This document shows positions 14,708 through 33,009 of a DNA stretch of 50,682 nucleotides, piece by piece. The stretch's first letter is position 1, and each line of letters starts with the position of its first letter. The position numbers and the translations under genes were made by a program. The notes under the pieces were generated by a model that did not search any database, was not told the DNA's origin, and saw only the letters and a program-made list of their open reading frames with translations. Source of the stretch: a virus; IMG/VR virus record IMGVR_UViG_3300044712_000908, positions 1 through 50,682 of that record, one strand, 5' to 3'.

Positions 14708-14712
14708 CTAGG

Positions 14713-18499: not shown

Positions 18500-18527
18500 G
18501 AGGGGCGGTCCCGGAGGACCGCCCCTC
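18500..18527 (-). terminator. Strong 12-bp hairpin after the cement gene (attenuator or processing site)
   Basis: The arms GAGGGGCGGTCC (18500-18511) and GGACCGCCCCTC (18516-18527) are perfect, with a 4-nt loop. It lies six bases downstream of the cement-gene stop on the transcribed minus strand. No U-tract follows, so it is not a classic intrinsic terminator. It may stabilise the 3' end of the highly expressed capsid messages or partly stop transcription. Confidence 0.55.
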
Positions 18528-19014: not shown

Positions 19015-20019
19015 TTACGCCACCTGGGTCTCGGTGGAGATGATCGAATCCGTGACCCGGATCGGAATCCCCATGAAGCTGACGATGGGATGTCCGGCCG
19101 CGTTGTCGACCGTGAGCGTGTAGCTGGCCTTGTTGAGCGCGTGCTTGTGCAGCCCGGCGGCGATCTTCCGGTTGCAGTAGATCACCGTGCGGCCGGCGCT
19201 CGGATCGTTCAGCTTGTAGTAGCTGTCGATCATCCCCTGGATGAGCGTCGCCGTGGTGGTCTCGGCACCGACCGCGGACACGTCGATGTTCCCGAAGCGG
19301 ACCACGTTCCGCCAGTCCTCGACGACGAGGCCGACCTTCCACTGCCACTTCGTGATCCAGGCGGTGAACTTGTTGGTGCCGCCGGAGTCGGTCCAGAGCT
19401 GCTTGCCGAGGTCCTCGCTCGCGAGGCCGGCGGACATGCCCTTCGGGAAGATCCCGTAGACCTGCTTCGGGCCCCAGGTCACGAACCAGATCGACGTGTA
19501 GTCGCCGCCGGAGAGCGTGCCGTAGTCGTCCCAGTCCACGAAGTTCGTGGAGCAGGCGGCCGTGGTGAGGTCGGAGAAGCGCGGGGTGAGGCCCGTGAAC
19601 TTCTCAGGAGCGGTCTTGGTGGAGTGGTAGAACAGGCCGGTCGAGACCTCGTGGCCCATGGCCTGGACGAAGGCCTGGTCCTCGGAGGCGCGGAACGCGG
19701 GGCCGTTGCCGTTCAGCTCGACGAGCGCGGTGTCGACCACGGACATCCCTTCCAGCATTCCGCAGGTCTCGTCGTAGTTGTCGACCTGGCTCTTGCTGGG
19801 CGCGATGCCCTGGTTGATCATGCGCCACGAGACCGAAGGCAGTCCGGTGCGGCTCGACACCCGGTGCCCCGTGGTCAGGTTGCCCTCCTGGAACACGATG
19901 TCCTGGAGGATCGGAATGCGCTGCTGAAGCAGCTCCGCCATCTGGACGATGTTGCCGTTCGGATCCGTCCGCTTCGCCCAGTCGGCCAGGGTCGGAAGCG
20001 TATTGCCGATAGTCGCCAT
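19015..20019 (-). CDS. Major capsid protein (BPP-1 Bbp17-like, HK97 fold expected)
   Basis: The 334-residue protein starts MATIGNTLPTLADWAKRTDP, with the following NGNIVQMAELLQQRIPILQD typical of podovirus capsid proteins of the BPP-1 group. No long N-terminal scaffolding region is present; a separate scaffold gene lies immediately upstream. Gene order portal, Bbp19, scaffold, capsid, cement supports the call. The start at 20019 abuts the upstream stop. Confidence 0.85.
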   Translation of the reverse strand: MATIGNTLPTLADWAKRTDPNGNIVQMAELLQQRIPILQDIVFQEGNLTTGHRVSSRTGLPSVSWRMINQGIAPSKSQVDNYDETCGMLEGMSVVDTALVELNGNGPAFRASEDQAFVQAMGHEVSTGLFYHSTKTAPEKFTGLTPRFSDLTTAACSTNFVDWDDYGTLSGGDYTSIWFVTWGPKQVYGIFPKGMSAGLASEDLGKQLWTDSGGTNKFTAWITKWQWKVGLVVEDWRNVVRFGNIDVSAVGAETTTATLIQGMIDSYYKLNDPSAGRTVIYCNRKIAAGLHKHALNKASYTLTVDNAAGHPIVSFMGIPIRVTDSIISTETQVA

Positions 20020-20697
20020 TTACTGCTCCTTGGGGAACATGGTGGGATACATCGCCTTCAGCCTGTCCTGCTCGGTCTGCTTCGGGGCCGGCGGAGTGCC
20101 GTGACCGCCAGCGAAGGTGTCTTCGCTGAGAGTCTTCCCGACACGTGCGAAGAAGCGGACGATCTCCGGGTGGTTGCCGAGGCCGGAGGTCTGGAGGGCG
20201 TCACGGAGAGCGGGCGTGCCGTACTTGTCGATGGCGCGCTTCGCGCTCGCGAGAACGACCGGGAGCCGCTCGCCGCCGATCTCGGGATCGGCGCGGGAGG
20301 CCTTGGCCCAGTCCGCCTTCATCTGCGCCCAGCTCTGCTTTGCCTTCGCAGAGGCATCGGAGAGCTGCGCAGCGTACAGGTCCAGAGCTTCCTGGGCCTG
20401 TTCTTGGGAGAGCTTCTTCGCTTCCGCGAACTGCTTGAACTTCACGAACCCGGGGTCATCTGCATTGACGCCGACCGGAGGCTTCAGTTGGAGGGGCTGC
20501 CCAGGAGGTGGTGTGCCTTTCGGCTCGTCCTTGGGTGGCTCTCCTTCCCCTGTCAGGAGCGTCGTCTCCTCCGGCGGCTTCTCCGGAGGCTTGGCCTGCG
20601 CAGCCGGCTTCGCCGGATCCGCAGGAGGTGGTGCCGCCTTCTCGGTGGAAGGCGGAGGATCGGTGAGGAGGGTCTGCTGCTTCGGATCGTCAGGCAT
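20020..20697 (-). CDS. Capsid scaffold protein
   Basis: The 225-residue protein has a proline/lysine/glutamate-rich disordered N-terminal third, then a helical, charged region (FKQFAEAKKLSQEQAQEALD) and a lysine-containing C-terminal tail (DRLKAMYPTMFPKEQ) of the kind that contacts capsid subunits. Position directly before the major capsid gene is diagnostic. ATG 20697 overlaps the preceding gene by 8 bases. No protease domain is seen in it. Confidence 0.8.
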   Translation of the reverse strand: MPDDPKQQTLLTDPPPSTEKAAPPPADPAKPAAQAKPPEKPPEETTLLTGEGEPPKDEPKGTPPPGQPLQLKPPVGVNADDPGFVKFKQFAEAKKLSQEQAQEALDLYAAQLSDASAKAKQSWAQMKADWAKASRADPEIGGERLPVVLASAKRAIDKYGTPALRDALQTSGLGNHPEIVRFFARVGKTLSEDTFAGGHGTPPAPKQTEQDRLKAMYPTMFPKEQ

Positions 20698-21058
20698 CGT
20701 TGTCCTCGGTGACGGCCTTGGAGGCGGAGGAGCGGATCTCGTTGTCCGCGCGCAGCCGCTTGAAGTGCTCCGCCTCCATGAGCGCGTACTGCTCCGGGGC
20801 ATAGAGCTTCACGAGGTCGGACAGGGTCGCCGCTCCCCAGCGCCGGCCTTCCCAGAGCGCAGCCGTGCGCTCGGAAGTGTCGCCTGCGCAGACAGCCTGG
20901 AGCCCGAGCAGGTCGAAGATGATGTGGTGCATCAGGATCCGGCCCTGTTCGGACTTCATCGCGTCCTGGATGGCAGTCTCGACGCGCTGCGAACGCAGCC
21001 GGTCGTTCTCGCGGATCCGGCCCTGGGCGGCCTCGTTGGAGAGGTGGCCGTTTTTCAC
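20690..21058 (-). CDS. Bbp19-like protein
   Basis: This 122-residue helical protein has the pattern of the Bbp19 family: EQGRILMHHIIFDLLGLQAV, then EGRRWGAATLSDLVKL and YALMEAEH. Members lie between portal and scaffold in BPP-1-like podoviruses; their role is not established. The gene overlaps the portal gene by four bases (ATGA), so the two are translationally coupled. Confidence 0.75.
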   Translation of the reverse strand: MKNGHLSNEAAQGRIRENDRLRSQRVETAIQDAMKSEQGRILMHHIIFDLLGLQAVCAGDTSERTAALWEGRRWGAATLSDLVKLYAPEQYALMEAEHFKRLRADNEIRSSASKAVTEDNDA

Positions 21059-22887
21059 TGGCTCATTCCGGGTACGGGGGCGGCCCCGATGGAGGCCATG
21101 AGGCGCTGAAGGGCGCTGTCTTGATCGAGCTTCGTGTCGCCGAGGTCCTTCGTGGCGGCGGCGACGCCCGGAGCATTCTCGGCCGCCTGCTGCTGCTGCT
21201 GGGCAGCGGCGCGCTGCTGGCGAATCTGGTCGACGGCCTGCTGTGTACGCAGCAGAGTCGGGTCCACGCCGACCATCTCTGCGTAGTCGGTGATGATCTT
21301 GTCGGCGTCGAGCTTGTCGACGATGTCCGGCATGACCTTCGACATGTTGAGGGAGAGCTGAAGGAGTCGCTCGACGGCAGCGGTGCCGACGAGCTTCTGG
21401 GCCTTCGACATGACCGAGAGGTACTCGACCTTGATCTCGGTGCCGCGAAGCTCCTGCGGCGGGGGCGGGAGCAGGCCCCGGCGGACCATGACGTTGAAGA
21501 CGCGCTCGATCATCGGGTCGAGCAGCTCGTCCTGGATGCGCTCCAGGGTCGGCCCGAGCTGAAGCATCTTCTCCTCGTGGCGCTCGACGATTTCCCGAGC
21601 AGTCGCGGGGATGTTCCGGTCGTCGTTGGTGATGGCGAGCCAGAGGTCCGCGTAGAACGCGGCGTTGATCCTGGCCTCGTGCTCCTTCACCGACAGGTCG
21701 AGGAACTGGACTGCCTGCGGAGAGATGACCATGGCCGGCTCGAAGGTCGTGCCAGGGCCGAGCGTGTCGAGGTAGGTGACGTCTCCGGGAAGCAGGGAAG
21801 CTCGCTGGTTACGCAGCGAGGAAGGCGCCTTCATGGGCGGGTTCACGATCTTGTCGATCGCCTGGGCCTTGCGCTTTTCGTAGAGCTGGAGGGCCTTGGC
21901 ATCGCCGAGGGCGTTCATGCCCGGGGAGCTGCCGTAGACGTCCTCGCCGGTGATCTCCCAGCGGGGGCACATGACGGGCCACTCGTTGAAGCCGCCCTCG
22001 TAGAGGACGCCGTCGGACTCGTCGGCGTTCTTCTCGATCCAGAGGGAGCGCCAGGGCATCTCGGTCGGTGCGTAGACCTTGCCCTGCATCTGGGGCCGGG
22101 CGCGGGGCATGTCGGCGCTTTCGCGCTCGGGCGTCATGTCCGGGCCCATGTCCTGTCCGGTGGGCTCGGCTTCGGAGGCAGGCGGGTTCTCGACCTTGGG
22201 CAGGACGTCCATCTCGTCCTGGTCGGGAAGCTCCTCCTCGTCCTGCCAGCGTGGCTCGACGACATGGACGAGGTCGACCCATTCGTCGTAGCGGCCGTGC
22301 TCGAAGGCTTCGCGGACGTGGCGGGAGACGCGGCTCTTGCCGAAGCGGCGGACGGTCTGCTCGACCGTCATGCTGATCTCGCGGTAGATCGTGTCGACGG
22401 CGAGACGGTGGGAGGAGGCCAGGCAGTATTGGCCGATGGGGAGGACGTAGGCGCGGATGACGTCTTCCTCGTCCTCCTCGATGATCATGGCCGTGGTGCC
22501 GAAGGTGCCGAGGTCGCCGTAGACGAGAGGCAGGGCGTTGTAGAGGTTCGACCGGGCGAAGGTCTCCTCCATCCGGCGCTGCACCTCCTGGAGCCAGCCG
22601 AGCACAGCCGGCGTGCGCACGAAGCCGGGCGCAGCGAGCCGGAACCACGGGCGCGCGGGCGAGGTGATGCCCGACATCATCCCGGACGAGAGGGTCCGGA
22701 CCGCCCGAAGGGGGGTGTTGTTGACGATGTTGGAGTTCTTCTTCTGGCCGCGGTTGCGGTCGGCCTGAAGGAAGCGGGGGCGACGAGGAGCGAGCTGCTC
22801 TCCCAGCTCACGCCAGTGGTCGAGCCAGGAGGACCGCTCGTTCACGAGGTTCGCCCAGCGGGCGAGGACCCTGCCGCGTGCGCTCAT
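21055..22887 (-). CDS. Portal (head-tail connector) protein
   Basis: It is a 610-residue protein of the T7-like head-tail connector family. It opens with a helix (RGRVLARWANLVNERSSW), then NSNIVNNTPLRAVRTLSSGM and SPARPWFRLA, all typical of podovirus portals that form the dodecameric DNA channel. The C-terminal 60 residues are glutamine/alanine-rich and may form the barrel. I choose ATG 22887, which overlaps the upstream stop as ATGA, rather than an earlier in-frame start inside that gene. Confidence 0.9.
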   Translation of the reverse strand: MSARGRVLARWANLVNERSSWLDHWRELGEQLAPRRPRFLQADRNRGQKKNSNIVNNTPLRAVRTLSSGMMSGITSPARPWFRLAAPGFVRTPAVLGWLQEVQRRMEETFARSNLYNALPLVYGDLGTFGTTAMIIEEDEEDVIRAYVLPIGQYCLASSHRLAVDTIYREISMTVEQTVRRFGKSRVSRHVREAFEHGRYDEWVDLVHVVEPRWQDEEELPDQDEMDVLPKVENPPASEAEPTGQDMGPDMTPERESADMPRARPQMQGKVYAPTEMPWRSLWIEKNADESDGVLYEGGFNEWPVMCPRWEITGEDVYGSSPGMNALGDAKALQLYEKRKAQAIDKIVNPPMKAPSSLRNQRASLLPGDVTYLDTLGPGTTFEPAMVISPQAVQFLDLSVKEHEARINAAFYADLWLAITNDDRNIPATAREIVERHEEKMLQLGPTLERIQDELLDPMIERVFNVMVRRGLLPPPPQELRGTEIKVEYLSVMSKAQKLVGTAAVERLLQLSLNMSKVMPDIVDKLDADKIITDYAEMVGVDPTLLRTQQAVDQIRQQRAAAQQQQQAAENAPGVAAATKDLGDTKLDQDSALQRLMASIGAAPVPGMSQ

Positions 22888-23477
22888 GCCCTGTGCCTCC
22901 GACCAGCGCCACGACCCACCCACACGTCGATGGGCTCCATGTCGAGCGGCTCAATGGCCGGCGTCGAACCGCCTCCATCGGAGTTGTCGGCTGTGTTCGG
23001 AGGCGGAGCCTCTCGGAAACCCGGAGGCGGAGCAGTCACGCTGCCAGGCGGGGGAGCGGTCCTGAAGCCGGGAGTGGGAGCCGGGGTCTGGATCCAGGAC
23101 GGGAGGTCCATGGTCTTCCAGTTCGGCAGGGTGGACTTGGGCCACGGCTGGCCCTCGATGCCACGGGCGCCGATGAGGTAGGTGTCGCGGTAGCCTCGAC
23201 GTCCCTGTGTGTCCAGGTAAGAGCGGGACCGCATGGCTTCGGCAGCGACGGAGAACGGGTCGTTCTGGGACAGGTCTTCCATGGCCGCGTCGTTCTCTGC
23301 TTTCGCAGCCTCGGCGCTCTCGCGTGCCATGTCCTCGATGCCGCCGTTGTTGAGGCTTGTGTCGATGCCGCCGGAAAGGCCGCCGAACACGTAGCCAAGC
23401 AGGGGGTCGCCGCCGCCGAAGATGGCGCCGGCCAGGTTCCCGCTCCCCCAATGCAGCGGATTCCAGTCGAACCCCAT
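22884..23477 (-). CDS. Terminase-portal linker protein, unknown (197 aa)
   Basis: The N-terminus is Gly-rich and hydrophobic (LAGAIFGGGDPLLGYVFGGL), followed by an acidic helix (EDMARESAEAAKAENDAAME). The C-terminal 70 residues are a proline-rich low-complexity tail with repeats of the type APPPGFR. Comparable Gly-rich proteins occur between terminase and portal in podoviruses. It could be a minor virion protein. Start and upstream stop overlap by one base. Confidence 0.6.
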   Translation of the reverse strand: MGFDWNPLHWGSGNLAGAIFGGGDPLLGYVFGGLSGGIDTSLNNGGIEDMARESAEAAKAENDAAMEDLSQNDPFSVAAEAMRSRSYLDTQGRRGYRDTYLIGARGIEGQPWPKSTLPNWKTMDLPSWIQTPAPTPGFRTAPPPGSVTAPPPGFREAPPPNTADNSDGGGSTPAIEPLDMEPIDVWVGRGAGRRHRA

Positions 23478-24931
23478 CAGGCGGCTCCTGCTAGGCCATC
23501 AGCCATCGGGTCGTATTCCCAGCGTACACTGTCAGAATGTACTCCCATTCGGGAGACGAAATCATCCGGGCGCCCTGCCGCAGCGACGGGGAGGGCGAAG
23601 GTAAGGGCGAGGGCGTCTGCCTCGTCTGGGGAGGGCTGGCCGCGCTTCTTCAGCTCGTCCTTGGTCTCCAGGGTGAGCCGGGAGTTACGGGAGAACTTGT
23701 AGACCGGGGCGGTCATCCCGGCGATTAGCTCCGGGATGTTCGGGATGCAGCCGCGGTCCTTCACCCAGGCGGCCATCTTCCACCACATCTCGGCTCGCCT
23801 GTTCTCGAAGCGCGTTGCCTCCATCGCCCGGCCACCGAACTCGATGCCCGTCGCGTCGTAGCCGAGCTGCCTCACCCGGTCCACTACGCCAGCCCCCAGA
23901 CCTGTCTGGTCGACGAAGATCCTCTGGGGCTTCCACTCGATGATGGCCTGGACGACGCAGTCAGCCAGTTCCATGAGGTCCAGGTCTCGGTAGACCCGGG
24001 GCCGGTAGGACACGGGGCCCTGGCGGAGGAACAGGACGGACTGGTCATCGCCGAAGCGAGCGCAGTCGACACCGAGTACCCGGGGCTCGAAGGCGAACTC
24101 GTCCTCTCGGACGACCCGCCTTGCGGCGGTCATCGCCTCCTCGGGGCCGATGAGCTTGTCGGCCTGCGCTGGCGGGAACTTCCCGAACACGTTCACCAGT
24201 ACCCAGGGGTTGTCTCGACCCCACATCTCGATTTGCTGCCTCGCCCAGTCCACCGAAATCCGCGGCGCTCGCAGCGGATCGTCCGGGTCCCCCGTGATCT
24301 CCTTCACCCACCACCGACCCCGGTCACTCGTGCAGATGCGCCAAAGAGGTCCCTCCGTTCGGGTGGGGTTTCCCGCACACCACAGCTTCGTCTCCACCCC
24401 TGTAGAAAGTGCAGCCTCCGCAGCAACGACCACCCCTTCTGGGTAGTCCGAGACCTCATCCAGCAGGAGCAGGACGTAGTCGCCGTGGATGCCGGCCATG
24501 GCGTTCGCCTGCTGGCTCTGGTCAGCGTCCTTGGCCCAGCCTCTCGCCGAGATGAACCAGGTATCCGGATGGTCCCGAGCCGAAATCCGCTGCGATGTCT
24601 GGTCGAACAGCTCTTGCAGCAACGGACTCTTGGCCCGCCACTTCGCGAACTCCGTCCACAGCCCGTCCCGCAGGTTGTCCGCCGTGATGCTGGAGCACAC
24701 CACCTTCGGGTGTGGCCGCGTCAGCATGAAGTTCCAGCCGCACCAGGCCAGCACCGTCGTCTTCCCTGGCCCCTTGCACGCCTTCAGCGCCCCGCGCTGG
24801 TGCTTCGCGAACGCATCCAACACCTCAAGCTGCCAGCCGTCCGGCTCTACCTGGAACAGCTCCCGCACCATCTTCGCCGGGCTCGCTCGCCATTCGGCGA
24901 GCTTCCCCTGCGCGTTCGAGAGCGTCGTCAC
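23477..24931 (-). CDS. terL: Terminase large subunit
   Basis: The 484-residue packaging motor carries Walker A KGPGKTT at residues 53-59, Walker B LLLLDE with D158-E159, and a C-terminal RNase H-like nuclease with acidic residues in GVDCARFGDD (D289) and FVDQTGLGAG (D341), plus a late DEADA motif. The ATPase translocates DNA through the portal and the nuclease cuts the concatemer. It starts with GTG at 24931, immediately after the TAG of the small subunit, so initiation is probably coupled. Confidence 0.93.
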   Translation of the reverse strand: MTTLSNAQGKLAEWRASPAKMVRELFQVEPDGWQLEVLDAFAKHQRGALKACKGPGKTTVLAWCGWNFMLTRPHPKVVCSSITADNLRDGLWTEFAKWRAKSPLLQELFDQTSQRISARDHPDTWFISARGWAKDADQSQQANAMAGIHGDYVLLLLDEVSDYPEGVVVAAEAALSTGVETKLWCAGNPTRTEGPLWRICTSDRGRWWVKEITGDPDDPLRAPRISVDWARQQIEMWGRDNPWVLVNVFGKFPPAQADKLIGPEEAMTAARRVVREDEFAFEPRVLGVDCARFGDDQSVLFLRQGPVSYRPRVYRDLDLMELADCVVQAIIEWKPQRIFVDQTGLGAGVVDRVRQLGYDATGIEFGGRAMEATRFENRRAEMWWKMAAWVKDRGCIPNIPELIAGMTAPVYKFSRNSRLTLETKDELKKRGQPSPDEADALALTFALPVAAAGRPDDFVSRMGVHSDSVRWEYDPMADGLAGAA

Positions 24932-25519
24932 CTAACCCTCATCCCCGTCGACAAGGGGGTTACAACCATCCCCCGAAAGAGGTAGGGAGTCTGAAAGTTG
25001 GTTTGCGTTGGGAGGAAGGGCCCCCGGGGCGGGGCGGGCATCCATGTTCTGGGCCCCACCCCCCCTGTCCGCCTGCTGCGCGGGCGCACCCCCGTCGTGC
25101 GCATGGCCCGACTCTGTCGGGCTGCATGGCTCAGGCTGCCCGTCTGCTGCTTGAGCAGCAGGTAGGACGAGGGCATCGACGACATGCAGCTCTCTCTGCT
25201 TAGGCAGAGAGCCCATGACCAAGGCCTCAAGCGTCACCCTCTGGGTGACGTTCACCTGGGTCGAGTGTCGGCCCAGCATGTTCTCAAGCATCAAGGCTCC
25301 AGCCTTGATGACGTTCGCTCCATGCGCAGGCGGAATCTCGCAGCGCACGACGCGCATCAGCATGCGCTCGACCTCCATCGCGACCTTCTGCTTTTCCGGA
25401 GGAAAAGCAGCGGGATCGGCCCGAATGTCGAGAACCTGGTTGTGAACGCTCTCAAGAGCGTTCCACATGGCCCGTTGACCATTCGCAGCCCGAGGCCGAC
25501 CAGTCGTCCCTCTGGGACG
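24885..25519 (-). repeat. Cluster of perfect small-loop inverted repeats in terS and the start of terL
   Basis: Perfect arms with loops of 2-7 nt occur at 24885-24902 (7 bp), 25084-25102 (6), 25106-25122 (7), 25144-25161 (8), 25192-25211 (8), 25232-25250 (8), 25289-25310 (10), 25352-25367 (6), 25388-25410 (10), 25444-25463 (9) and 25505-25519 (6). Three have loop AGA as read on the transcript (25106, 25232, 25505). The arm sequences all differ, so this is not a simple copied repeat. Confidence 0.85.
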
Positions 25520-25552
25520 GCCAGAGCCCGGTCGACGTCCACCACGCGGCAT
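24932..25552 (-). CDS. terS: Terminase small subunit (candidate)
   Basis: The 206-residue protein directly precedes terL. The basic N-terminus (MPRGGRRPGSGRPRGTTGRP) is a common opening of small terminases. It is followed by a helical region (AMWNALESVHNQVL, EKQKVAMEVERMLMRVV) and a disordered C-terminal third. ATG 25552 is preferred over a TTG nine codons upstream. The coding sequence is unusual in holding at least nine perfect short inverted repeats. DNA recognition at a packaging site is the expected role; assignment rests on position and N-terminal pattern. Confidence 0.72.
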   Translation of the reverse strand: MPRGGRRPGSGRPRGTTGRPRAANGQRAMWNALESVHNQVLDIRADPAAFPPEKQKVAMEVERMLMRVVRCEIPPAHGANVIKAGALMLENMLGRHSTQVNVTQRVTLEALVMGSLPKQRELHVVDALVLPAAQAADGQPEPCSPTESGHAHDGGAPAQQADRGGGAQNMDARPAPGALPPNANQLSDSLPLSGDGCNPLVDGDEG

Positions 25553-25959
25553 TCGAGCCCTCGCGCACGTGAGAATCAAACAGCGTTTGATTCTCCGGCT
25601 GATTCATACAGCGGCCCTATGCTGACAGCATAGGGAGCCGGAATCAAGCGACCCGATGGTCACGTATGGCGGTAGCCATACGTGTATGGTCATTTGAGGA
25701 GCATCTACGGAGTAGATGCTGCGCCGCGTCAAGGTTGGGCTGACTCAAAACGCGGGAGCGATGCGCGACATTGAGCTACGCGCGACAACCTGACCAGCGC
25801 GCAGGCGGCGCGATTGCGTGTGTGTTTTGAGGCCAGAATCGACGCTACATAGTAGCGTCCCAAAAGGGATGCTGGACGGGGTGCCCCGGCTCTGCAAGGG
25901 TCGGCGGCGCAGCACCCCACGACGTCGCCCGGCAAGCCCGGGCAGAAAGCGAGCCGCAA
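25553..25959. other. Divergent intergenic region with five hairpins
   Basis: The 407-nt gap between the late minus-strand and early plus-strand blocks has no convincing gene. It holds perfect inverted repeats at 25571-25595 (10-bp arms, 5-nt loop), 25615-25635 (9, loop GAC), 25661-25684 (10, 4-nt loop), 25700-25720 (9, loop GGA) and 25841-25859 (8, loop ATA), plus a small TCCC-AAAA-GGGA. Promoters for both blocks should lie here, but no convincing -35/-10 pair stands out. A regulatory, origin or packaging role is possible. Confidence 0.8.
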
Positions 25960-26772
25960 ATGGCCGACACGACGCAGCCCACGACCACGACGCAGACGCA
26001 GAGCACCCCCGCTCCCGTGAGCGTTCTCCTGATGGGGCGGTTTGGAACGATGCCGTCCGACAGGGCGTACCCGCTGAGCCCGGAGGGCTGGAGCGCGCTG
26101 TGGGCAGACGTCCGGGCAGAGCGCGCCACGGGCTGGAAGCCCGACACGGCGGAGCAGGCTGCCATCGACGCAGCGTACAAGGCCGGCAAGGCGGCGGGGC
26201 TGGGCAGGCAGGCGAAGGCGCCCACGTCGCCGGAGGCGAAGGCCACGACGGCGAAGGCCACGGGGCGGAGCCGCAAGGCTCGGACGGAGCGACTGCCCTC
26301 CGGGCAGCACGTGGTTCTCGGGGTCTTCCACAGCCCGGAAGGCTCGCCGGGAGCCCAGAGGGTCTACCGGCGCTGGTTCAAGACCGCGGGTGAGGCCTAC
26401 GAGGCCGTGGACGTGACGCTGGAGGCCCTCCGGGCCCAGATGGACAAGGCCGGGACCAAGAGCGGCATGTTGACCATCACGGTCAAGGACTACCTGCTGA
26501 ACGAGACCTGGACCATGAAGGTCCCGGTGTCGAACGAGGGGAAGGAGTCCTACTCCTTCAAGCAGGTGGCGAAGCTGGCCCCCAAGGCTCCCCCGGCGAA
26601 GCCGGCCCCGACCGTCAAGGTGGCGAAGCCCGTCGCGAAGCCCGCCCCCCGCTTCCAGCGGGCCGCGAAGCCGCAGAGCCCGAACGCGGACATCAAGAGC
26701 GCCCTGAAGGCCGCGCTCCAGGGGCTCGCCGCGACCCAGGCCGCCATCATGGCGGCGGTCAACGCCCTCTAG
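25960..26772 (+). CDS. First early gene, unknown function (270 aa)
   Basis: The protein has a Thr/Gln-rich N-terminus and a segment (SPEGWSALWADVRAERATGW) near residue 47. A basic Ala/Lys linker follows at about residues 85-110, then a small beta-rich domain (HVVLGVFHSPEG, GMLTITVKDYLLNETWTM). It ends in a Pro/Lys/Ala tail like histone-type basic proteins. It may bind nucleic acid. The ribosome site is weak. A hairpin (26770-26784) spans its stop codon. No family was recognised. Confidence 0.65.
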   Translation: MADTTQPTTTTQTQSTPAPVSVLLMGRFGTMPSDRAYPLSPEGWSALWADVRAERATGWKPDTAEQAAIDAAYKAGKAAGLGRQAKAPTSPEAKATTAKATGRSRKARTERLPSGQHVVLGVFHSPEGSPGAQRVYRRWFKTAGEAYEAVDVTLEALRAQMDKAGTKSGMLTITVKDYLLNETWTMKVPVSNEGKESYSFKQVAKLAPKAPPAKPAPTVKVAKPVAKPAPRFQRAAKPQSPNADIKSALKAALQGLAATQAAIMAAVNAL

Positions 26773-26784
26773 TCCAGAGGACTA
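26770..26784 (+). promoter_or_regulatory. Stem-AGA-stem hairpin over a stop codon
   Basis: TAGTCC / GGACTA is perfect with loop AGA, and the 5' arm contains the TAG stop of the 25960-26772 gene. Just downstream (about 26791-26818) a second, imperfect 10-bp hairpin lies before the next gene. Confidence 0.6.
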
Positions 26785-26823
26785 CAGCGCCGAGAGGGGC
26801 TCGATAGGGCCTCTCTCGACGCT

Positions 26824-26836
26824 TGTCCGGAGGACA
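26824..26836 (+). promoter_or_regulatory. Hairpin TGTCC-GGA-GGACA containing the ribosome site
   Basis: The Shine-Dalgarno GGAGG is formed by the loop and the start of the 3' arm. The ATG at 26838 follows by one base, so folding would mask the site and could tune translation of the first GYLV-family gene. Confidence 0.5.
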
Positions 26837-26837
26837 C

Positions 26838-27110
26838 ATGCAAGCCGACACGTCCAAATGGCCCTACCGCACCTTCCCCTTCGCGAAGGAGGAGCGAACC
26901 TACGTCATCGTCTGCCCAGAGGGCTACCTGGTCACGGATGACTTCAAGAACCCCCGCGTGGAGACGTACACGAAACGCCTCTCCGAGGCGTCCAAGTGGA
27001 CCGGGAGCCAGGTCCAGCGTTGGGGACCAACGCGGCTCGTGAAGGACCAGGAGGTCGACAGGAGCGCACACCTCCTCGACGCCGCTGTAGCACCAGAGGT
27101 GCTGGAATGA
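26838..27110 (+). CDS. GYLV-family small protein 1 (90 aa)
   Basis: It is one of four related proteins encoded close together (26838, 27107, 27845, 28093). The core is YVIVCPEGYLV, then TKRLSEASKW, a Trp-Gly segment and a terminal LLDAAVAPEVLE. This suggests a small alpha/beta fold, with a strand, a turn at GYLV, and a helix starting at the RLSEA motif. I do not know the family. The stop overlaps the next start by ATGA, so the first two copies are coupled. Confidence 0.75.
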   Translation: MQADTSKWPYRTFPFAKEERTYVIVCPEGYLVTDDFKNPRVETYTKRLSEASKWTGSQVQRWGPTRLVKDQEVDRSAHLLDAAVAPEVLE

Positions 27111-27412
27111 CGCTCGGCGAAATCCTCCGCCCCGGTCATCAGTACGTCATCGTGGGCGAACGCGGCTACCTCGCGAAGGCATGGTGCAAGGCTGGAGTCA
27201 CCTTCTCGGACCCCCAATCCTGGACCAGGCGCCTCTCCGAGGCCCACGTGTGGCCCTACGAAACCGTCGCCGGATGGGGCACGGGACAGAGCTACACCGG
27301 AACCGGCGACAAGCAGTACATGGTCGATGTCACCCAAGCAGCAGAGCTGCTACCTGTAGACGCAGTCGAAAACCCCAAGTCCCCGCAGAGCGGGGAAGGA
27401 GAGAAGCCGTGA
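27107..27412 (+). CDS. GYLV-family small protein 2 (101 aa)
   Basis: It shares YVIVGERGYLA, then WTRRLSEAHVW and a terminal VDVTQAAELL with its three relatives. It has a longer loop between the two motifs and an added acidic/Ser tail (KSPQSGEGEKP). It is coupled to the genes on both sides by 4-base overlaps. Function is unknown. Confidence 0.75.
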   Translation: MTLGEILRPGHQYVIVGERGYLAKAWCKAGVTFSDPQSWTRRLSEAHVWPYETVAGWGTGQSYTGTGDKQYMVDVTQAAELLPVDAVENPKSPQSGEGEKP

Positions 27413-27831
27413 GCGACGAGACGAAGAAGGTCAGCCCCATCTCCCCGAGGGAGATCAGCAAGGAGGGCCGCAAGGCCCTGAACGACGCAGGGAACGAGTC
27501 CATCCGCATCTACAAGGAGAAGGCCCGCGCCATCTTCGAGGCGGAGGGCAAGGCGGAGGCCTTCGAGGCCACCTGGCCCAACATCATCGCCTCGTGGGCG
27601 ACCGCCATCGCGGCGGCCTCCGGCAAGGCCGTGACCCTCGACCTCGCCTCCGGAACCGGGCAGGGCCCGGAGGGCGCCGTCCGCGCCATCATGGGCGCCC
27701 TGGAGCAGGCCCTCGGCCAGCACGTCGACTGCAACGACCCGGAGTGCCCCGTCCACGGCAAGGGCAAGCGGGACGACGCGGAGCCGCCCCGGTTCGGCGT
27801 CGTCAAGGGTGGCAAGTCCTACCTGAACTAG
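27409..27831 (+). CDS. Helical protein with C-terminal Cys/His motif, unknown (140 aa)
   Basis: GTG 27409 overlaps the upstream stop. The N-terminal 100 residues are charged and helical (SKEGRKALNDAGNESIRIY). Near the end is DCNDPECPVHG, a compact cluster that could bind one zinc ion together with nearby residues. It interrupts the run of GYLV-family genes and is not a member. No family was recognised. Confidence 0.65.
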   Translation: MSDETKKVSPISPREISKEGRKALNDAGNESIRIYKEKARAIFEAEGKAEAFEATWPNIIASWATAIAAASGKAVTLDLASGTGQGPEGAVRAIMGALEQALGQHVDCNDPECPVHGKGKRDDAEPPRFGVVKGGKSYLN

Positions 27832-27842
27832 CCCGGAGGGCT
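27830..27842 (+). promoter_or_regulatory. Hairpin AGCCC-GGA-GGGCT containing the ribosome site
   Basis: It has the same design as the hairpin at 26824: a perfect 5-bp stem with loop GGA, so that GGAGG lies across loop and 3' arm. ATG 27845 follows. The 5' arm overlaps the stop of the preceding gene. Confidence 0.5.
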
Positions 27843-27844
27843 CC

Positions 27845-28090
27845 ATGCCTCCCGACGAGTCTCGACTCTACGTCATCCGAGCCCTGGAGGGCTACCTCGT
27901 GAAGGTGAAGCCAGGCGGAGAGAGCACAGTCGGCTACGTCTGGACGAAGAACCTCTCCGAGGCGCAGCGGTACGAGTGGAGCCACGTCCGCATGTACATC
28001 GACCAGCCGCAGGGCGCACTGGGCAAGATCGGCACCGGGGGTCACTGGCTCCGCATCGAACAGGCACCCGACGTCCTGGAGGACGACTAG
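27845..28090 (+). CDS. GYLV-family small protein 3 (81 aa)
   Basis: The core is YVIRALEGYLV, then WTKNLSEAQRYEW and a terminal IEQAPDVLEDD, matching the layout of the other three members. It is preceded by a ribosome site held in a small hairpin. Function is unknown; family membership rests on visible residue pattern and tandem arrangement. Confidence 0.75.
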   Translation: MPPDESRLYVIRALEGYLVKVKPGGESTVGYVWTKNLSEAQRYEWSHVRMYIDQPQGALGKIGTGGHWLRIEQAPDVLEDD

Positions 28091-28092
28091 CC

Positions 28093-28338
28093 ATGGGAAC
28101 CTGGGACTGGACCAAGCCCGACCACGACTACGTTCTCGTCACCGAGAAGGGGTACTGGGTCGGGAGGGACGACAAGAAAGGCATCCACGTCTTCTCCCGC
28201 TTTCTCAAGGACGCACACCGCTGGAAGGGGGAGCACACGAAGGCATGGGGCCCGAAACTCATCAGCGACGAGACCGCTCCGCACCTGGTCGACGCCGCGA
28301 TGGCTCCGGAGGAGATCCCGGGTAGCCCCCTGAAGTAG
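28093..28338 (+). CDS. GYLV-family small protein 4 (81 aa)
   Basis: The core is YVLVTEKGYWV, then SRFLKDAHRWKG, WGPKLISDE and a terminal LVDAAMAPEEI. The second half is closest to copy 1 (WGPTRLVKDQ, LLDAAVAPEVL), which suggests duplication of that copy. The start lies two bases after the copy 3 stop. Confidence 0.75.
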   Translation: MGTWDWTKPDHDYVLVTEKGYWVGRDDKKGIHVFSRFLKDAHRWKGEHTKAWGPKLISDETAPHLVDAAMAPEEIPGSPLK

Positions 28339-28350
28339 CCCAGACAGTGA

Positions 28351-28374
28351 AACGCTCTGCGTTCGCAGAGCGTT
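28351..28374 (+). promoter_or_regulatory. 10-bp hairpin with GTTC loop in the 28339-28440 gap
   Basis: AACGCTCTGC / GCAGAGCGTT is a perfect repeat with a 4-nt loop and no U-tract. It lies 12 bases after the last GYLV-family stop. It could protect a message end or stop transcription partly. Confidence 0.55.
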
Positions 28375-28413
28375 GCCCGGAATGGCGACCCGGGATGTGA
28401 CCATCACGCCAGG

Positions 28414-28428
28414 GCTGGCAGAGCCAGC
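28414..28428 (+). promoter_or_regulatory. Stem-AGA-stem hairpin abutting a ribosome site
   Basis: GCTGGC / GCCAGC with loop AGA is followed directly by AAGGAG and ATG 28441, with 12 nt between hairpin and ATG. It has the same arrangement as the hairpins at 29830 and 31683. Confidence 0.65.
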
Positions 28429-28440
28429 AAGGAGAACATC

Positions 28441-28644
28441 ATGTCGGACCGTAACCTCGCGTTTTCCCACACGAACCGCAAGGACCGCCGCATCGCTCGG
28501 GCCGTGAAGCACGGCATGCGCGTCTCCGGAGTCCCGCTCATCTCGCCGGTCGTGAAGCAGGCCCTCCGGGCCATCCACGCCCCCACCAAGTCGACGCCGC
28601 TCCCCAAGGGCTTCGACGACCAGACGCTCGCCATCACGAGGTAG
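28441..28644 (+). CDS. Small basic protein, unknown (67 aa)
   Basis: The protein is rich in Arg, Lys and His (RNLAFSHTNRKDRRIARAVK) with one predicted helix in the middle. It may bind nucleic acid. It has a strong ribosome site preceded by an AGA-loop hairpin. No family was recognised. Confidence 0.6.
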   Translation: MSDRNLAFSHTNRKDRRIARAVKHGMRVSGVPLISPVVKQALRAIHAPTKSTPLPKGFDDQTLAITR

Positions 28645-28646
28645 CC

Positions 28647-28910
28647 ATGCCCCGCTACCGCAGCAACGGCCGGTTCGCTCCCACCCTCTGGTCCGTCGTC
28701 AGGGACGACGGCAAGTGGGCGACAGAGAACCCGCTCCGAAACGTGAACGCTGCGTTCACACAGGCAGAGCGAGAGCTTCGCGCCGTGATGCGCGTCGTGA
28801 AGCTCGCTCACGTCCGGCACCACCCGCTTCAGCCAGGGATCGTCTGCAACCTGTGTAAGGCCCTGGACACACTCGAAAACGTGCGGCAGAGCCGCAAGGG
28901 AAAGAGGTAG
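28647..28910 (+). CDS. Small basic protein with CNLC motif, unknown (87 aa)
   Basis: It starts MPRYRSNGRF and has a central helix (QAERELRAVMRVVKLAH). A His-rich stretch next to CNLC could form a zinc site with HVRHH. It lies two bases after the preceding gene. No family was recognised. Confidence 0.6.
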   Translation: MPRYRSNGRFAPTLWSVVRDDGKWATENPLRNVNAAFTQAERELRAVMRVVKLAHVRHHPLQPGIVCNLCKALDTLENVRQSRKGKR

Positions 28911-28914
28911 CGCC

Positions 28915-29835
28915 ATGACCACGATGCTCGAAGACCTCCAGTCCGCCACCGCCACCGCCGCCGGTCCGCTCCAAGGGAGCGTCGTGTGGTGGGACCTCTC
29001 CGACTCCGAGACGGCCGTTTCGCTGTTCACGCAGCGCATCCGCTCCGAGGGGCTCGACGAGACGCTGCTCCCGGAGCAGCCCCCGCCGGCCCGCGCCCTC
29101 CGGGACGCCGGGCAGGAGACGCTGAAGGGCCACGGCAACAAGAAGGGCATGTACCTCCTCCGTCCCGCTGGGACGTCGGGGGACACCTACTTCTACGCCA
29201 TGGTCCGGGAGGACCAAGTCTCCGCCGGAACGCTGCATCACGGGCAGTCCGCCACGTTCTCCGTCCGGCCGGACGGGATGCTGTCCGTCACCGTGCATGA
29301 CCCCGCGTGCCGCAAGGATGCGGCTGCCGTCGAGGCTGCCTACCTCCGCATCCACGGCACCTACCAGTCGAGGGACATCCGGGAATTCGTGCTCCGGACG
29401 CTGAAGGCTGCCGCTGGCGTTCCGCTGCGTTCGCACGGCGGCATCTACTGGGTCCCCGCGTCCTTCCAGGACGTGGTCGAGAAGGTCAAGCGAGTCATCG
29501 ACTCGCTCGGTCAGTCAGCCTTCTCGATCCTGCCCATCCACGCCACGGCCCTCGGGACGAGGGCGGTCAGCGCCGCTGCCAAGCGGCACCTGGAGGAGGA
29601 GCTGACCACGCTCAAGCAGGAGCTTGACGGGTGGTCAATGGACCTGGCGCACGGAGAGGGCCCGAGGCCCTCCACGGTCCATCGGCGGATCGAGGACTTC
29701 GTCGACCTCCGGTCGAAGGCGCACCTGTACCGCGATATCCTCTCGCTCCAGGTCGAGGACATCGAGGCCCGACTCATCGCTGCGGAGCAGCAGGCGAAGA
29801 AGATCCTCCTCGGCATCGACATCATCCGTTCGTAG
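28915..29835 (+). CDS. DUF6744-like phage protein (306 aa)
   Basis: It starts with a beta strand region (GSVVWWDLSDSETAVSLFTQRI), then LPEQPPPARALRDAG, a central beta-rich domain (YFYAMVREDQV, ATFSVRPDGMLSV) and a C-terminal coiled coil (KRHLEEELTTLKQELD). This layout resembles phage proteins grouped as DUF6744; I recall the family only by pattern. It precedes the MoxR-VWA pair, so it may work with them, which is inference. Its stop lies in the AGA hairpin at 29830. Confidence 0.62.
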   Translation: MTTMLEDLQSATATAAGPLQGSVVWWDLSDSETAVSLFTQRIRSEGLDETLLPEQPPPARALRDAGQETLKGHGNKKGMYLLRPAGTSGDTYFYAMVREDQVSAGTLHHGQSATFSVRPDGMLSVTVHDPACRKDAAAVEAAYLRIHGTYQSRDIREFVLRTLKAAAGVPLRSHGGIYWVPASFQDVVEKVKRVIDSLGQSAFSILPIHATALGTRAVSAAAKRHLEEELTTLKQELDGWSMDLAHGEGPRPSTVHRRIEDFVDLRSKAHLYRDILSLQVEDIEARLIAAEQQAKKILLGIDIIRS

Positions 29836-29846
29836 CAGAGCTACGA
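29830..29846 (+). promoter_or_regulatory. Stem-AGA-stem hairpin at a stop codon and ribosome site
   Basis: TCGTAGC / GCTACGA is a perfect 7-bp stem with loop AGA. The 5' arm includes the TAG of the upstream gene. GAAAGGAG follows the 3' arm directly and ATG 29861 is 14 nt downstream. Confidence 0.65.
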
Positions 29847-29860
29847 GAAAGGAGAACGCA

Positions 29861-30112
29861 ATGGCAAAGGCGAAGAAGCAGAAGGCCGACGTCGTCGGCC
29901 TCACCCACGAGATGCTCCACGGAGCGTACCTGGCGTTGGAGCTGCTCGACACGGCCATGGGGAGCGGCTTCCCCGACATCTACAAGCCGGTCAAGGACCG
30001 GCACCCCGAGATCGGGCCGCTCATCGACAACGCGGAGGCGGCTCTCGCCGCCCTGTACCAGGGGCTCGGCGCCGCTCTCGTCGCGGAGCAGGACAAGGAG
30101 GCCGGGCGATGA
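29861..30112 (+). CDS. Small helical protein, unknown (83 aa)
   Basis: A lysine-rich start (AKAKKQKADVVG) is followed by two helices with a conserved-looking DIYKPVKDRHPEIGPL turn between them. It has no membrane segment. It lies just upstream of a small membrane protein gene, which it overlaps by ATGA. No family was recognised. Confidence 0.6.
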   Translation: MAKAKKQKADVVGLTHEMLHGAYLALELLDTAMGSGFPDIYKPVKDRHPEIGPLIDNAEAALAALYQGLGAALVAEQDKEAGR

Positions 30113-30348
30113 CCCCCACGATCCCGCACGACGTGTTCAGCCGGTGGCTCCGCAAGCGCATCATCGGAGCAACCGTGTGGTCCGCCATCCTGGCGACCCT
30201 CGCCATCCTGAACGCGATCGGCGACCGGCCGACATGGTGGCTCGTGGTGCTCTGCTCCATCTTCGCCGGAGGCGAGCTGTTCGGCGCCATCCACGACGGG
30301 CGCGTGCTCACGATACACAAGCGCATGACGAGCATGACGCCCGAGTAG
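30109..30348 (+). CDS. Small membrane protein, two predicted segments (79 aa)
   Basis: Two hydrophobic segments lie at about residues 20-38 (ATVWSAILATLAILNAIG) and 43-60 (WWLVVLCSIFAGGELFGA). The N-terminus is short and basic. It starts within the stop of the preceding gene. A role at the host membrane is likely; identity is unknown. Confidence 0.6.
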   Translation: MTPTIPHDVFSRWLRKRIIGATVWSAILATLAILNAIGDRPTWWLVVLCSIFAGGELFGAIHDGRVLTIHKRMTSMTPE

Positions 30349-30379
30349 CGCAAGCATAGTAGGCGCATCATGCGACCCC

Positions 30380-30394
30380 TACGGTGAAACCGTA
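30380..30394 (+). terminator. Small hairpin TACGGT-GAA-ACCGTA before a promoter
   Basis: It is a perfect 6-bp stem in the 161-nt gap between the membrane protein and ATPase genes, 14 bases upstream of the promoter-like TTGCAA. It has no U-tract, so its role is uncertain. Confidence 0.4.
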
Positions 30395-30407
30395 CCAAAC
30401 GGGGCTG

Positions 30408-30436
30408 TTGCAATCTGAAAACGGGTCGAGTAACGT
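30408..30436 (+). promoter_or_regulatory. Promoter-like element P1 ahead of the MoxR-VWA pair
   Basis: TTGCAA (30408-30413) and TAACGT (30431-30436) are separated by 17 bases. The flanks resemble the element at 37306-37333: both begin CT, one base, TTGCA, and have CGA just before the -10-like TAA. It lies in one of the few real gaps of the plus-strand block, consistent with a promoter for the genes from 30510 on. Confidence 0.5.
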
Positions 30437-30476
30437 CGCCCCGATTCGCCGCAATTCGCAGTCAACGCAGCGCAAA

Positions 30477-30493
30477 GCTCGGCACGACCGAGC
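30477..30493 (+). promoter_or_regulatory. Hairpin abutting the ATPase ribosome site
   Basis: GCTCGG / CCGAGC with loop CACGA is followed directly by AGAGGAG and, 16 nt after the hairpin, ATG 30510. The position relative to the ribosome site matches the AGA-loop hairpins, although the loop differs. Confidence 0.55.
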
Positions 30494-30509
30494 AGAGGAG
30501 AACGAGCAC

Positions 30510-31676
30510 ATGACGAACGCTACGGTTGCGAGCATCACGAAGGTCGACTCCGCCCTCTCCGCCATCCTGGCGACCCGTAAGTACCTGAACGACCACTTCC
30601 CCCAGAGGGAGGAGCAGGTCGACGGCGTGCTCTGGGCGATCCTGTCCAGCGAGCACGTGGTGCTCCTCGGCCCCCCGGGCACGGCGAAGACGCTCGTGGC
30701 GGAGACGACGGCGCACATCTTCGGGCTCCGCCAGTACCGGACGCTGCTCTCCCGCTTCACGACCCCCCCGGAGGTGTTCGGGCCGCTCTCGCTGAAGGGC
30801 CTGGAGGCCGACGAGGTGCGGTTCCAGACGGCCCGGATGCTGCCGGAGGCGGAGCTGGCGATCATCGACGAAATCTTCAAGGCCGGGACGGCCCTGCTGA
30901 ACACGCTCCTCGCCCTCATCAACGAGCGCACGTTCTACAACGGCACGCTCGGGCCGCAGCCGGCGCCGCTCCGGACGGTCATCGGGGCGTCCAACGAGAT
31001 GCCGCAGGGAGAGGGCCTGGAGGCCCTGTGGGACCGCTTCCTGCTCCGCTTCGAGGTCAAGTACGTGAAGGGCAAGCAGGCCTTCCGGCAGGTCCTCGAC
31101 TCCGAGTTCTCCATCCCGGAGAACGTGAAGGTCTCGAAGGCCGTGCTCGACGCCGCGGCGGCGCAGGCCATGGCGCTCCCGATCCCCGACGCGACCTACG
31201 ACGCGCTGTTCGAGTGCCGTGAGGCCCTCGGCGTCGAGGGGATCGTCGTCTCCGACCGGCGCTGGAAGAAGTCCCTGAACGTCGCCAGGGCCGCCGCGTT
31301 CCTCGCCGGGAACACGGAGGTCGAGCCGCCCGACCTCCTCTGCCTGACGCACTCCCTCTGGAGGGAGCCCAAGGAGAAGGGCAAGGTCGCCAAGGTCCTG
31401 TCCCGCCTGCTCGACTCCGACATCCACACGATGACCGAGATCGTCGAGGCCGCCAGGGAGACCCTGAAGCAGTACGAGGCGTCCCCCAAGGGGGTGAAGG
31501 AGTCCGCGTCGTTCGGGAAGACCCTCCGGGCGATGAAGGAGAAGGCGGAGGCCTTCGCGAAGAAGGCGAGCACGAAGCGCCAGGGCGCCATCCAGCCGCT
31601 CGTGAAGGAGGTCACGGACACCTGGAGGCAGGTCATCCGGCTCGCCGCCGAGTCCGCCGGCCTCCCGCTGGACTAG
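30510..31676 (+). CDS. MoxR/RavA-type AAA+ ATPase
   Basis: The 388-residue protein has Walker A GPPGTAKT at residues 54-61, Walker B IIDE with D120-E121, and the MoxR-family stretch DEIFKAGTALLNTLLALINE followed by R, which matches the RavA branch. A sensor-like GASNEMP and an arginine-finger region (LWDRFLLRFEV) follow. The C-terminal third is helical and lysine-rich. MoxR ATPases act with VWA partners to remodel or assemble protein complexes; the next gene encodes such a partner. The start ATG 30510 is set by AGAGGAG. The substrate in this phage is unknown. Confidence 0.9.
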   Translation: MTNATVASITKVDSALSAILATRKYLNDHFPQREEQVDGVLWAILSSEHVVLLGPPGTAKTLVAETTAHIFGLRQYRTLLSRFTTPPEVFGPLSLKGLEADEVRFQTARMLPEAELAIIDEIFKAGTALLNTLLALINERTFYNGTLGPQPAPLRTVIGASNEMPQGEGLEALWDRFLLRFEVKYVKGKQAFRQVLDSEFSIPENVKVSKAVLDAAAAQAMALPIPDATYDALFECREALGVEGIVVSDRRWKKSLNVARAAAFLAGNTEVEPPDLLCLTHSLWREPKEKGKVAKVLSRLLDSDIHTMTEIVEAARETLKQYEASPKGVKESASFGKTLRAMKEKAEAFAKKASTKRQGAIQPLVKEVTDTWRQVIRLAAESAGLPLD

Positions 31677-31682
31677 CCGCTG

Positions 31683-31699
31683 TGAACGCAGAGCGTTCA
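31683..31699 (+). promoter_or_regulatory. Stem-AGA-stem hairpin between ATPase and VWA genes
   Basis: TGAACGC / GCGTTCA is a perfect 7-bp stem with loop AGA. AGAAAGGAG follows directly and ATG 31714 is 14 nt downstream. The hairpin could set the expression ratio of the two partners. Confidence 0.65.
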
Positions 31700-31713
31700 A
31701 GAAAGGAGATGCC

Positions 31714-33009
31714 ATGAAAAGGCTCGCCATGGAGGTTTCCCGCTGGTCGACGATGATCAAGCGGTGGGTGGAGGGGGACCCTCTCCCGAGGGAGAGTGAC
31801 ACCCCGGCTGCCAAGTGGGAAGACGAGGTCTTCTGCCGGCTGTACGACCACGAGAACCGCTGGCTCCCGGAGGAGCGGGGCGACGGCAAGTGGACCAAGT
31901 GGTCCAGGAAGTTCCACCGGATGGCGGAGCAGGTCCCGGAGTGGGCGCAGCTCGAATCGGACTGCGAAGGCAACCTGCTCCGGTCGTCGGTCTCGACGCA
32001 GTACATCTACGAGCACCTGAAGGACCTCATCGAGGAGGAGCAGAAGGACGGCGGCGGCGGGGGCGAGGGCCAGGACGGCAAGGACCTTCGCCAGAAGGTC
32101 AAGGAGGCCATCCAGGGCGCCGCCAAGGCGAGTGACGACGCCCAGGAGATGGCGGAGGCGTTCGGGCCGCAGCCTGGCTCCGCCATGGGGAACCCGACGG
32201 GCTCCCTGTCCAAGGAGCAGGTCAAGGCCTGGATGGAGACGCTCAAGAAGGCCCCGCACCTGAAGAAGCTGGCGGAGATCGCCGGCCGCTTCCGGCGGAT
32301 CGCCCACAACACCCGGAAGACTCGGGTGAAGCACGCCGCGGACGAGGTCGAGGACGTCGAGATCGGGAACGACCTGTCCAAGCTGCTTCCGCAGGAAGCG
32401 CAGCGGCTCCGGGGCTCCAGGGGCAGCCGGCTCTCGTTCTTCGCCGACTACGCCTCCGGCAAGCTGATGCAGTACCGCATCGGCGGATACGACCGGAAGG
32501 GCATGGGGCCGATGATCGTGTGCATCGACAAGTCCGGCTCGATGAACGGCGACCCCGACATGTGGGCGACCTCCGTCGCCATGGCCCTCATGTCCCTCGC
32601 CCAGAAGGACCGGAGGCCCTTCGTTCTCGTCCCCTTCATGTACGGCCCGGTCAAGATGGTCCGGGTCGAGCCTGGCGAGGCGATCCCGCTCGATGACGTG
32701 CTCATCGCCGCCAACGGCGGCACGAGCATCGACAAGACGCTGAAGGCCTGCCTCGACTACATGAAGAAGGAACAGTCGGAACACGGACTGCTCCGCAAGG
32801 CCGACATCGTGCTCATCACGGACGGCGAGGACGGGACGTCCTTCGACGCGAAGGCCGAGGCCGACGCTCTCGACACCCGCATCGTCGGGATCGGGATCGG
32901 CGTTCCCGCCGGAGCCCTGAATGCCTGGGCTCACGAGTCCGCCGGGGTCGAGAACCTCCAGAACGTCGATGACGACATCGCCCAGATGATCTTCGCAGAG
33001 AAGGTGTAG
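31714..33009 (+). CDS. VWA-domain partner protein (ViaA/CobT-like)
   Basis: The 431-residue protein has a helical N-terminal half with a Gly/Glu/Lys-rich acidic segment near residues 108-135. The C-terminal VWA domain has a complete metal site: D272-x-S274-x-S276 in CIDKSGSMNG, T337 in NGGTS, and D370 in LITDGED. VWA proteins encoded next to MoxR ATPases bind them and direct their activity, as in the RavA-ViaA and cobaltochelatase-like pairs. It lies 37 bases after the ATPase gene. Confidence 0.88.
   Translation: MKRLAMEVSRWSTMIKRWVEGDPLPRESDTPAAKWEDEVFCRLYDHENRWLPEERGDGKWTKWSRKFHRMAEQVPEWAQLESDCEGNLLRSSVSTQYIYEHLKDLIEEEQKDGGGGGEGQDGKDLRQKVKEAIQGAAKASDDAQEMAEAFGPQPGSAMGNPTGSLSKEQVKAWMETLKKAPHLKKLAEIAGRFRRIAHNTRKTRVKHAADEVEDVEIGNDLSKLLPQEAQRLRGSRGSRLSFFADYASGKLMQYRIGGYDRKGMGPMIVCIDKSGSMNGDPDMWATSVAMALMSLAQKDRRPFVLVPFMYGPVKMVRVEPGEAIPLDDVLIAANGGTSIDKTLKACLDYMKKEQSEHGLLRKADIVLITDGEDGTSFDAKAEADALDTRIVGIGIGVPAGALNAWAHESAGVENLQNVDDDIAQMIFAEKV

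Follow-up and report, generated by a model that had tools for sequence, protein, structure and literature searches.

Perfect small-loop hairpins in the terS and early genes of a phage: a maintained array and a possible role as DNA sites

Introduction

Why should a phage gene be packed with small perfect hairpins while still encoding its protein? The question is raised by the terS locus of a virus DNA of 50,682 bases (G+C 0.667), the whole of which we call the window. An earlier note, made from the letters alone, drew attention to the hairpins and offered a packaging signal, RNA control of terminase expression, or template switching as explanations. Here we ask how far the hairpins extend, what they have in common, whether another phage has them, and which explanation best accounts for them. 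The array is real and evolutionarily maintained.

Results

The phage and its terS gene

Scans with Pfam and PHROGs place the structural genes on the minus strand, left of 25.6 kb; the plus-strand genes right of 25.96 kb include those for DUF6744, a MoxR-like ATPase, a vWA protein and RecE/RecT-like proteins (Table 1). The longest ORF of the record has 957 aa. The genes for DUF6744, the MoxR-like ATPase and the vWA protein are grouped in one phage, at 28915-33009. The probable host, judging from the nearest cellular relative of terL, is an Anaeromyxobacter-type myxobacterium; DUF6744 homologues, found in 24 of the 195 genomes of the phylum (Myxococcota) to which an Anaeromyxobacter MAG led, point the same way.

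The ORF at 24932-25579 is without a Pfam or PHROG match. Its assignment as terS follows from its position and from tblastn against relatives, in which homologues adjoin terL on its upstream side in L011, L055, L066 and L089 and have parts of the N-terminal GGRRPGxGRPRG and of a second motif, RVTLEALVxGSLP, in common. A start near 25549 is more likely than the listed TTG. The AlphaFold model of TerS is weak (pLDDT 59) and gave no significant Foldseek match; the model for the product of gene A, the first early gene, is likewise weak (pLDDT 51). The G+C content at codon position 3 is 0.67 in terS, versus 0.83 in terL and 0.91 in the portal gene, and it is possible that the low value in terS is a compositional cost of the hairpins.

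Table 1. Genes and hairpins of the window, with counterparts in the second phage (L010/L124) where given
Feature	Position	Strand	Remarks
Nozzle/tail protein gene	10473-12890	-	
Major capsid protein gene	19015-20019	-	
Protease gene	20020-20802	-	
Head-tail connector gene	21055-22923	-	
terL	23477-24931	-	
Left-most hairpin	24885-24902		GCTCGCC-attc-GGCGAGC; in first codons of terL
terS ORF	24932-25579	-	Listed start TTG; homologues directly upstream of terL in relatives
terS hairpins, start positions	25084, 25106, 25144, 25192, 25232, 25289, 25352, 25388, 25444, 25505		
Hairpin	25106-25122		GCCCGAC-aga-GTCGGGC (transcript sense)
Hairpin	25144-25161		Over codons PAAQAA; L010 counterpart at same place, CCGGCTGC-ttct-GCAGCCGG
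Hairpin	25192-25211		8 bp, loop 4
Hairpin	25232-25250		CGTCACCC-aga-GGGTGACG (transcript sense); codons VTQRVT; L010, CGTAACCC-aga-GGGTTACG
Hairpin	25289-25310		10 bp, loop 2
Hairpin	25388-25410		10 bp, loop gga (transcript: tcc)
Hairpin	25444-25463		9 bp, loop 2
Hairpin	25571-25595		11 bp, GAGAATCAAAC-agc-GTTTGATTCTC; straddles listed TTG start, just upstream of likely terS start
Three long non-coding hairpins	25615-25635, 25661-25684, 25700-25720		Arms 9, 10, 9
Hairpin	25841-25859		8 bp, GACGCTAC-ata-GTAGCGTC, then CCAAAAGGG
Gene A (first early gene)	25960-26772	+	39-40% identity to L124 counterpart
Early genes up to MoxR-like ATPase	25960-30384	+	Dispersed hairpins of ~15 nt, arm 5-8, loop mostly AGA/GGA/TCC
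DUF6744 gene	28915-29835	+	66% identity to L124 counterpart

Number and extent of the hairpins

The perfect inverted repeats of 24885-25519, of which the earlier note had claimed at least eleven, were recounted as exactly eleven, none overlapping another (arms of 6 bp or more, loops of 2-8 nt). The three loops it had read as AGA on the transcript were found at 25106, 25232 and 25505, the arms are indeed unrelated apart from the closing pair, and its view that the hairpins are compatible with a coded protein is right. Hairpin density in terS is far above that in 2000 synonymous-codon shuffles: seven hairpins have arms of at least 7 bp and six have arms of at least 8 bp, against shuffle means of 0.59 and 0.17 and maxima of 4 and 3, respectively. 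Other 648-bp windows of the contig have means of 1.1 and 0.30.

The hairpins at 24885-25519 are thus as described, but the array is not limited to that span. Its left end is at the terL/terS border; from there it extends across terS and the divergent intergenic region, and within the early genes it reaches about 30.4 kb. Five further hairpins, with arms of 11, 9, 10, 9 and 8 bp, lie at 25571-25859, which is mostly non-coding, and the longest arms, of 8-11 bp, are in the divergent intergenic region. Through the plus-strand early genes the excess is weaker and the arms are shorter. When arms of at least 6 bp and loops of 3-4 nt are counted, terS has 9 hairpins versus 0.65 in synonymous shuffles, DUF6744 has 13 versus 2.3, and the ORF at 27181 has 5 versus 1.0; the portal, RecE and RecT genes do not exceed their shuffles, and to the right of 34 kb hairpins are almost absent. 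Folding of 24932-25870 gave z-scores of -15.5 for the plus strand as DNA, -14.5 for the plus strand as RNA and -5.7 for the minus strand as RNA.

We considered and rejected a regular spacing of about 50 nt, as random placement with exclusion varies similarly (p = 0.21 for the window core, 0.08 for the wider window region and 0.047 for L124). Fast protein evolution was also rejected as a cause: the VWA gene, at 43% identity, gives 8 versus 2.0 in the window and 2 versus 1.4 in L124, without motif loops. Near the capsid gene there is an isolated perfect hairpin with arms of 12 bp, the longest in the window (GAGGGGCGGTCC-cgga-GGACCGCCCCTC, 18500-18527), which is possibly a terminator.

Loops and stems

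What do hairpins with unrelated arms have in common? Enrichment is found only for loops of 2-4 nt, and the early-gene peak is at exactly 3. For triloop hairpins in the early genes of the window and the relative, 36 with 4-bp arms are observed versus 38 expected, 32 with 5-bp arms versus 9.6, and 39 with 6-bp arms versus 3.3; the excess begins at arms of 5-6 bp, and there is none at 4 bp. The early-gene loops are usually AGA, GGA or TCC, with C-G or T-A as the closing pair. The 5' base of that pair is a pyrimidine in 13 of 13 hairpins of the window core and 13 of 14 in L124, versus 10 of 22 in the left half of the window. Among triplets flanked by a pyrimidine-purine closing pair, the share found in a stem of at least 4 bp is 61% for AGA, 39% for GGA, 34% for TCC and 25% for TCT; for the other triplets tested, including the stable DNA loops GAA and GCA, it is 11% or less. 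A codon artefact was rejected as the source of this preference, since it persists within each codon phase (p = 2e-10, 6e-5 and 1e-8).

Pairing is perfect or absent. Motif loops with all 6 of 6 pairs number 47, where 0.3 are expected; those with a single interior mismatch number 8, near the chance value of about 3.6. The near-perfect hairpins, about a dozen cases, have an apparent excess of A.C over G.T. G.U pairs are not enriched in stems on the sense strand. Loops on that strand are about equally GGA (23) and TCC (27), while AGA and TCT stand at 20 versus 2, with background pentamer counts of 22 versus 5. In terS and the intergenic stretch the loops are more varied than the early-gene motif and the arms are longer; one interpretation is that a shorter stem may require a preferred loop.

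The second phage

The nearest relative found, still a distant one, is L010/L124 (L010: IMGVR_UViG_3300035148_000724), with a terL identity of 72-73%. More than 100 terL relatives were compared, and only this closest one, L010, has a similar array upstream of terL. At about 150 loci, the best 2-kb window for perfect triloop hairpins holds 21-22 in the relative's contig, 15 in the window and at most 7 elsewhere. No further carriers were found in viral and genome scans, in phage and plasmid collections, or at the DUF6744 loci inspected in Myxococcota genomes. In both phages the array is bounded on the left by the terL start, hairpins are most crowded and have their longest arms in terS and the divergent intergenic region, and towards the right the excess dwindles over 4-5 kb. 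In L124 the motif-loop excess persists to the right of the MoxR start, at 13000-16000, where 12 of 67 sites are in stems of at least 5 bp, and so reaches further than in the window. Near-identical palindromes also occur near terL in L118 (1669-1736 and 3849-3937) and in L104 and L121 (3662-3974), as GCGCCACT-AGTGGCGC and TCCTCCCCCGT-ctg-ACGGGGGAGGA; these are repeats of one sequence, whereas the arms of the window array differ.

Hairpin pairing is kept in the one close relative. Neither outcome that the earlier note named as a refutation, a density no higher than in shuffles or a lack of conserved pairing, was thus seen. In coding sequence six hairpin centres coincide exactly between the two phages, versus 0.33 expected (p < 0.001), and most hairpin positions differ, so that there is turnover. 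The hairpin at 25144-25161 has 7 of 8 pairs kept in L010, one of these compensated. In the VTQRVT hairpin (25232-25250) one pair has changed on both sides, both changes being synonymous; the peptide matching this site in terS relatives is usually (S/T)G(R/K), so the hairpin phages deviate where most relatives have glycine. At the place corresponding to the hairpin at 25571-25595, L124 has AGAGAACC...GGTTCTCT (9737-9764). The non-coding hairpin at 25841-25859 has its L124 counterpart at 10031-10049, GGCTTCCC-tac-GGGAAGCC, then CCAAGAGGG; position, arm and loop lengths and the following CCAARAGGG are common to both, and 5 of the 8 pairs have changed on both sides. In the aligned genes of the two phages, amino-acid identity is 55% in hairpin codons versus 56% outside, identity per codon position is about equal inside and outside hairpins, and the differences split evenly between the arms (p = 0.78).

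Discussion

What maintains the hairpins? The reading we prefer, and hold only tentatively, is that they are selected DNA hairpin sites, probably extruded near divergent promoters and read by a candidate factor. Each site would act as DNA and have a perfect stem, no shorter than 5-6 bp and reaching 11 bp in terS and the intergenic region. Divergent transcription of the late (minus-strand) and early (plus-strand) operons would make the DNA negatively supercoiled, so that small hairpins or cruciforms extrude, and a phage or host factor would then read the loop and the perfect stem, as the N4 virion RNA polymerase does on its triloop promoter hairpins. For N4 it is established that supercoiled DNA can extrude hairpins of 5-7 bp with a 3-nt loop in vivo, and that a protein reads them (PMC4496689). 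Selection would maintain a sufficient number of sites rather than individual ones, which would lead to turnover and to use of synonymous codon freedom.

DNA rather than RNA is indicated by the equality of GGA and TCC on the sense strand, by the lack of a G.U excess and by the perfect-or-absent pairing. That something recognises the sites is favoured by the specificity of the loop, the threshold in stem length and the abrupt limit at terL. We place the divergent promoters from gene orientation alone, since a scan of 24800-26100 gave no promoter-like match. Among the larger ORFs of a contig that may be incomplete, Pfam and PHROGs revealed no hairpin-binding protein, no giant virion RNA polymerase or other polymerase match, and no other candidate reader. 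Several observations count against sites of this kind: dozens are many for a recognition element, the array is in two genomes only, with most positions unshared and varied loops in terS and the intergenic region, and perfect-or-absent pairing is also expected from template-switch repair. We give somewhat less credence to the broader proposal of a dsDNA phage lineage with a dispersed, degenerate DNA element, in which perfect stems of 5-6 bp or more, with freely varying arms and an RGA/TCY triloop, would occur dozens of times in terS and the early genes and be read as DNA by a candidate hairpin-recognising factor.

Of the three mechanisms proposed in the earlier note, two are weakened and template switching is still the main rival. 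Might hairpins without function be made and re-perfected by template switching during replication, at a mutational hotspot at the divergent region or a nearby origin? We think this unlikely, though it deserves serious weight. The perfect-or-absent pairing, the few one-mismatch forms and the many gains and losses are the traits that prompted the same proposal for the coding palindromes of Nematomorpha mitochondria, whose binary character was taken by the authors as a sign of repeat conversion (PMC6649704). Template switching is reported to create and maintain perfect hairpins with compensatory changes (PMC8794818) and to be active in coding DNA (PMC8604942), and conversion can yield compensated pairs. 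Against it, divergence in the arms does not exceed that elsewhere, and neither arm is preferentially rewritten. Multi-base copying into one arm was not seen, a comparison of limited power with two genomes and a long divergence; on these alignments recent wholesale copying of one arm is argued against, and single-base conversion would be compatible with two genomes this distant. Nor does template switching predict the preference for AGA, GGA and TCC over GAA and GCA, the stem-length threshold, or the sharp stop at terL in both phages, while hairpins abound in the similarly conserved DUF6744 and the genes beyond 34 kb have almost none. On a rough population-genetic reading, selection of moderate strength at each site would produce an excess of perfect forms together with few near misses, so that the binary pattern agrees with selection as well as with conversion.

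A terS-specific packaging signal and RNA control are less likely. If RNA hairpins in the terS and early mRNAs governed translation, processing or stability, which we consider improbable, one could understand why the sense RNA folds better than shuffles, why there are conserved hairpins ahead of the terS start and of gene A, and why AGA outnumbers TCT in sense loops. This last asymmetry, however, largely tracks the background pentamer counts. RNA helices tolerate G.U pairs, yet the stems lack them beyond chance, and the near equality of GGA and TCC loops on the sense strand means that a single RNA loop motif is not what is kept; together these weaken the case for RNA control. There was no match to a curated Rfam model.

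Packaging sites (pac) often lie in or near terS. An extended pac-like signal for terminase, centred on terS, would agree with the identification of the ORF as terS by position and homology, and with the finding in both phages that the densest, longest-armed part of the array is terS and the 400 bp upstream. We judge it quite improbable, because the array continues for about 5 kb through the early genes (4-5 kb beyond terS in both phages); in addition, the other terL relatives, which also need to package DNA, lack the array. That the array is due to chance or base composition, or is a series of intrinsic terminators, is very improbable indeed, as nothing beyond the genome's high G+C speaks for it, none of the dinucleotide, codon-order and synonymous shuffles reproduces the array, and a scan of 24800-26100 found 1 terminator versus 0.8 expected by chance, the hairpins lacking the combination of stem and T run.

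Comparison with known systems

The phage pair is a clean test case for whether perfect hairpins in coding DNA are kept by functional selection or by template-switch conversion, as the two predict different read-level variants. Because ordinary motif and homology searches miss hairpins whose arms vary freely, an entire class of DNA element could go unnoticed. What known systems resemble the array? The RGAG-loop RNA packaging signals of hepatitis B virus (PMC7612645) also combine many stem-loops and unrelated stems with a common purine-rich loop motif, but they are RNA elements read by the capsid protein, whereas the present pattern is on both DNA strands, without G.U pairs. Template-switch (quasipalindrome) footprints (PMC8794818, PMC8604942) are similar in having perfect short inverted repeats and compensatory changes; unlike them, the array has no arm bias and no raised divergence, its loop motif is specific and its regional limit is sharp. 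The Nematomorpha palindromes (PMC6649704) are alike in being perfect repeats in protein-coding genes, in their binary character, their many gains and losses, their use of codon degeneracy and their codon-phase bias. They are mitochondrial and up to 284 bp long, however, whereas those described here are about 15-25 nt, with a fixed short loop bearing a motif, in one region of a dsDNA phage.

The N4 virion RNA polymerase promoters (PMC4496689) are likewise small DNA hairpins of an early region, with a 3-nt loop of the GGA type and a C-G closing pair. In N4 the promoters number three, some of their stem bases are conserved, and the polymerase is a giant virion enzyme; the array described here has dozens of sites, its loops include AGA, and no conserved stem bases were found in arms that are unrelated apart from the closing pair. 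The array does contain the N4-type arrangement of a 3-nt loop closed by C-G on a stem of 5-7 bp, and in both systems the non-conserved stem bases may vary, provided that they remain paired.
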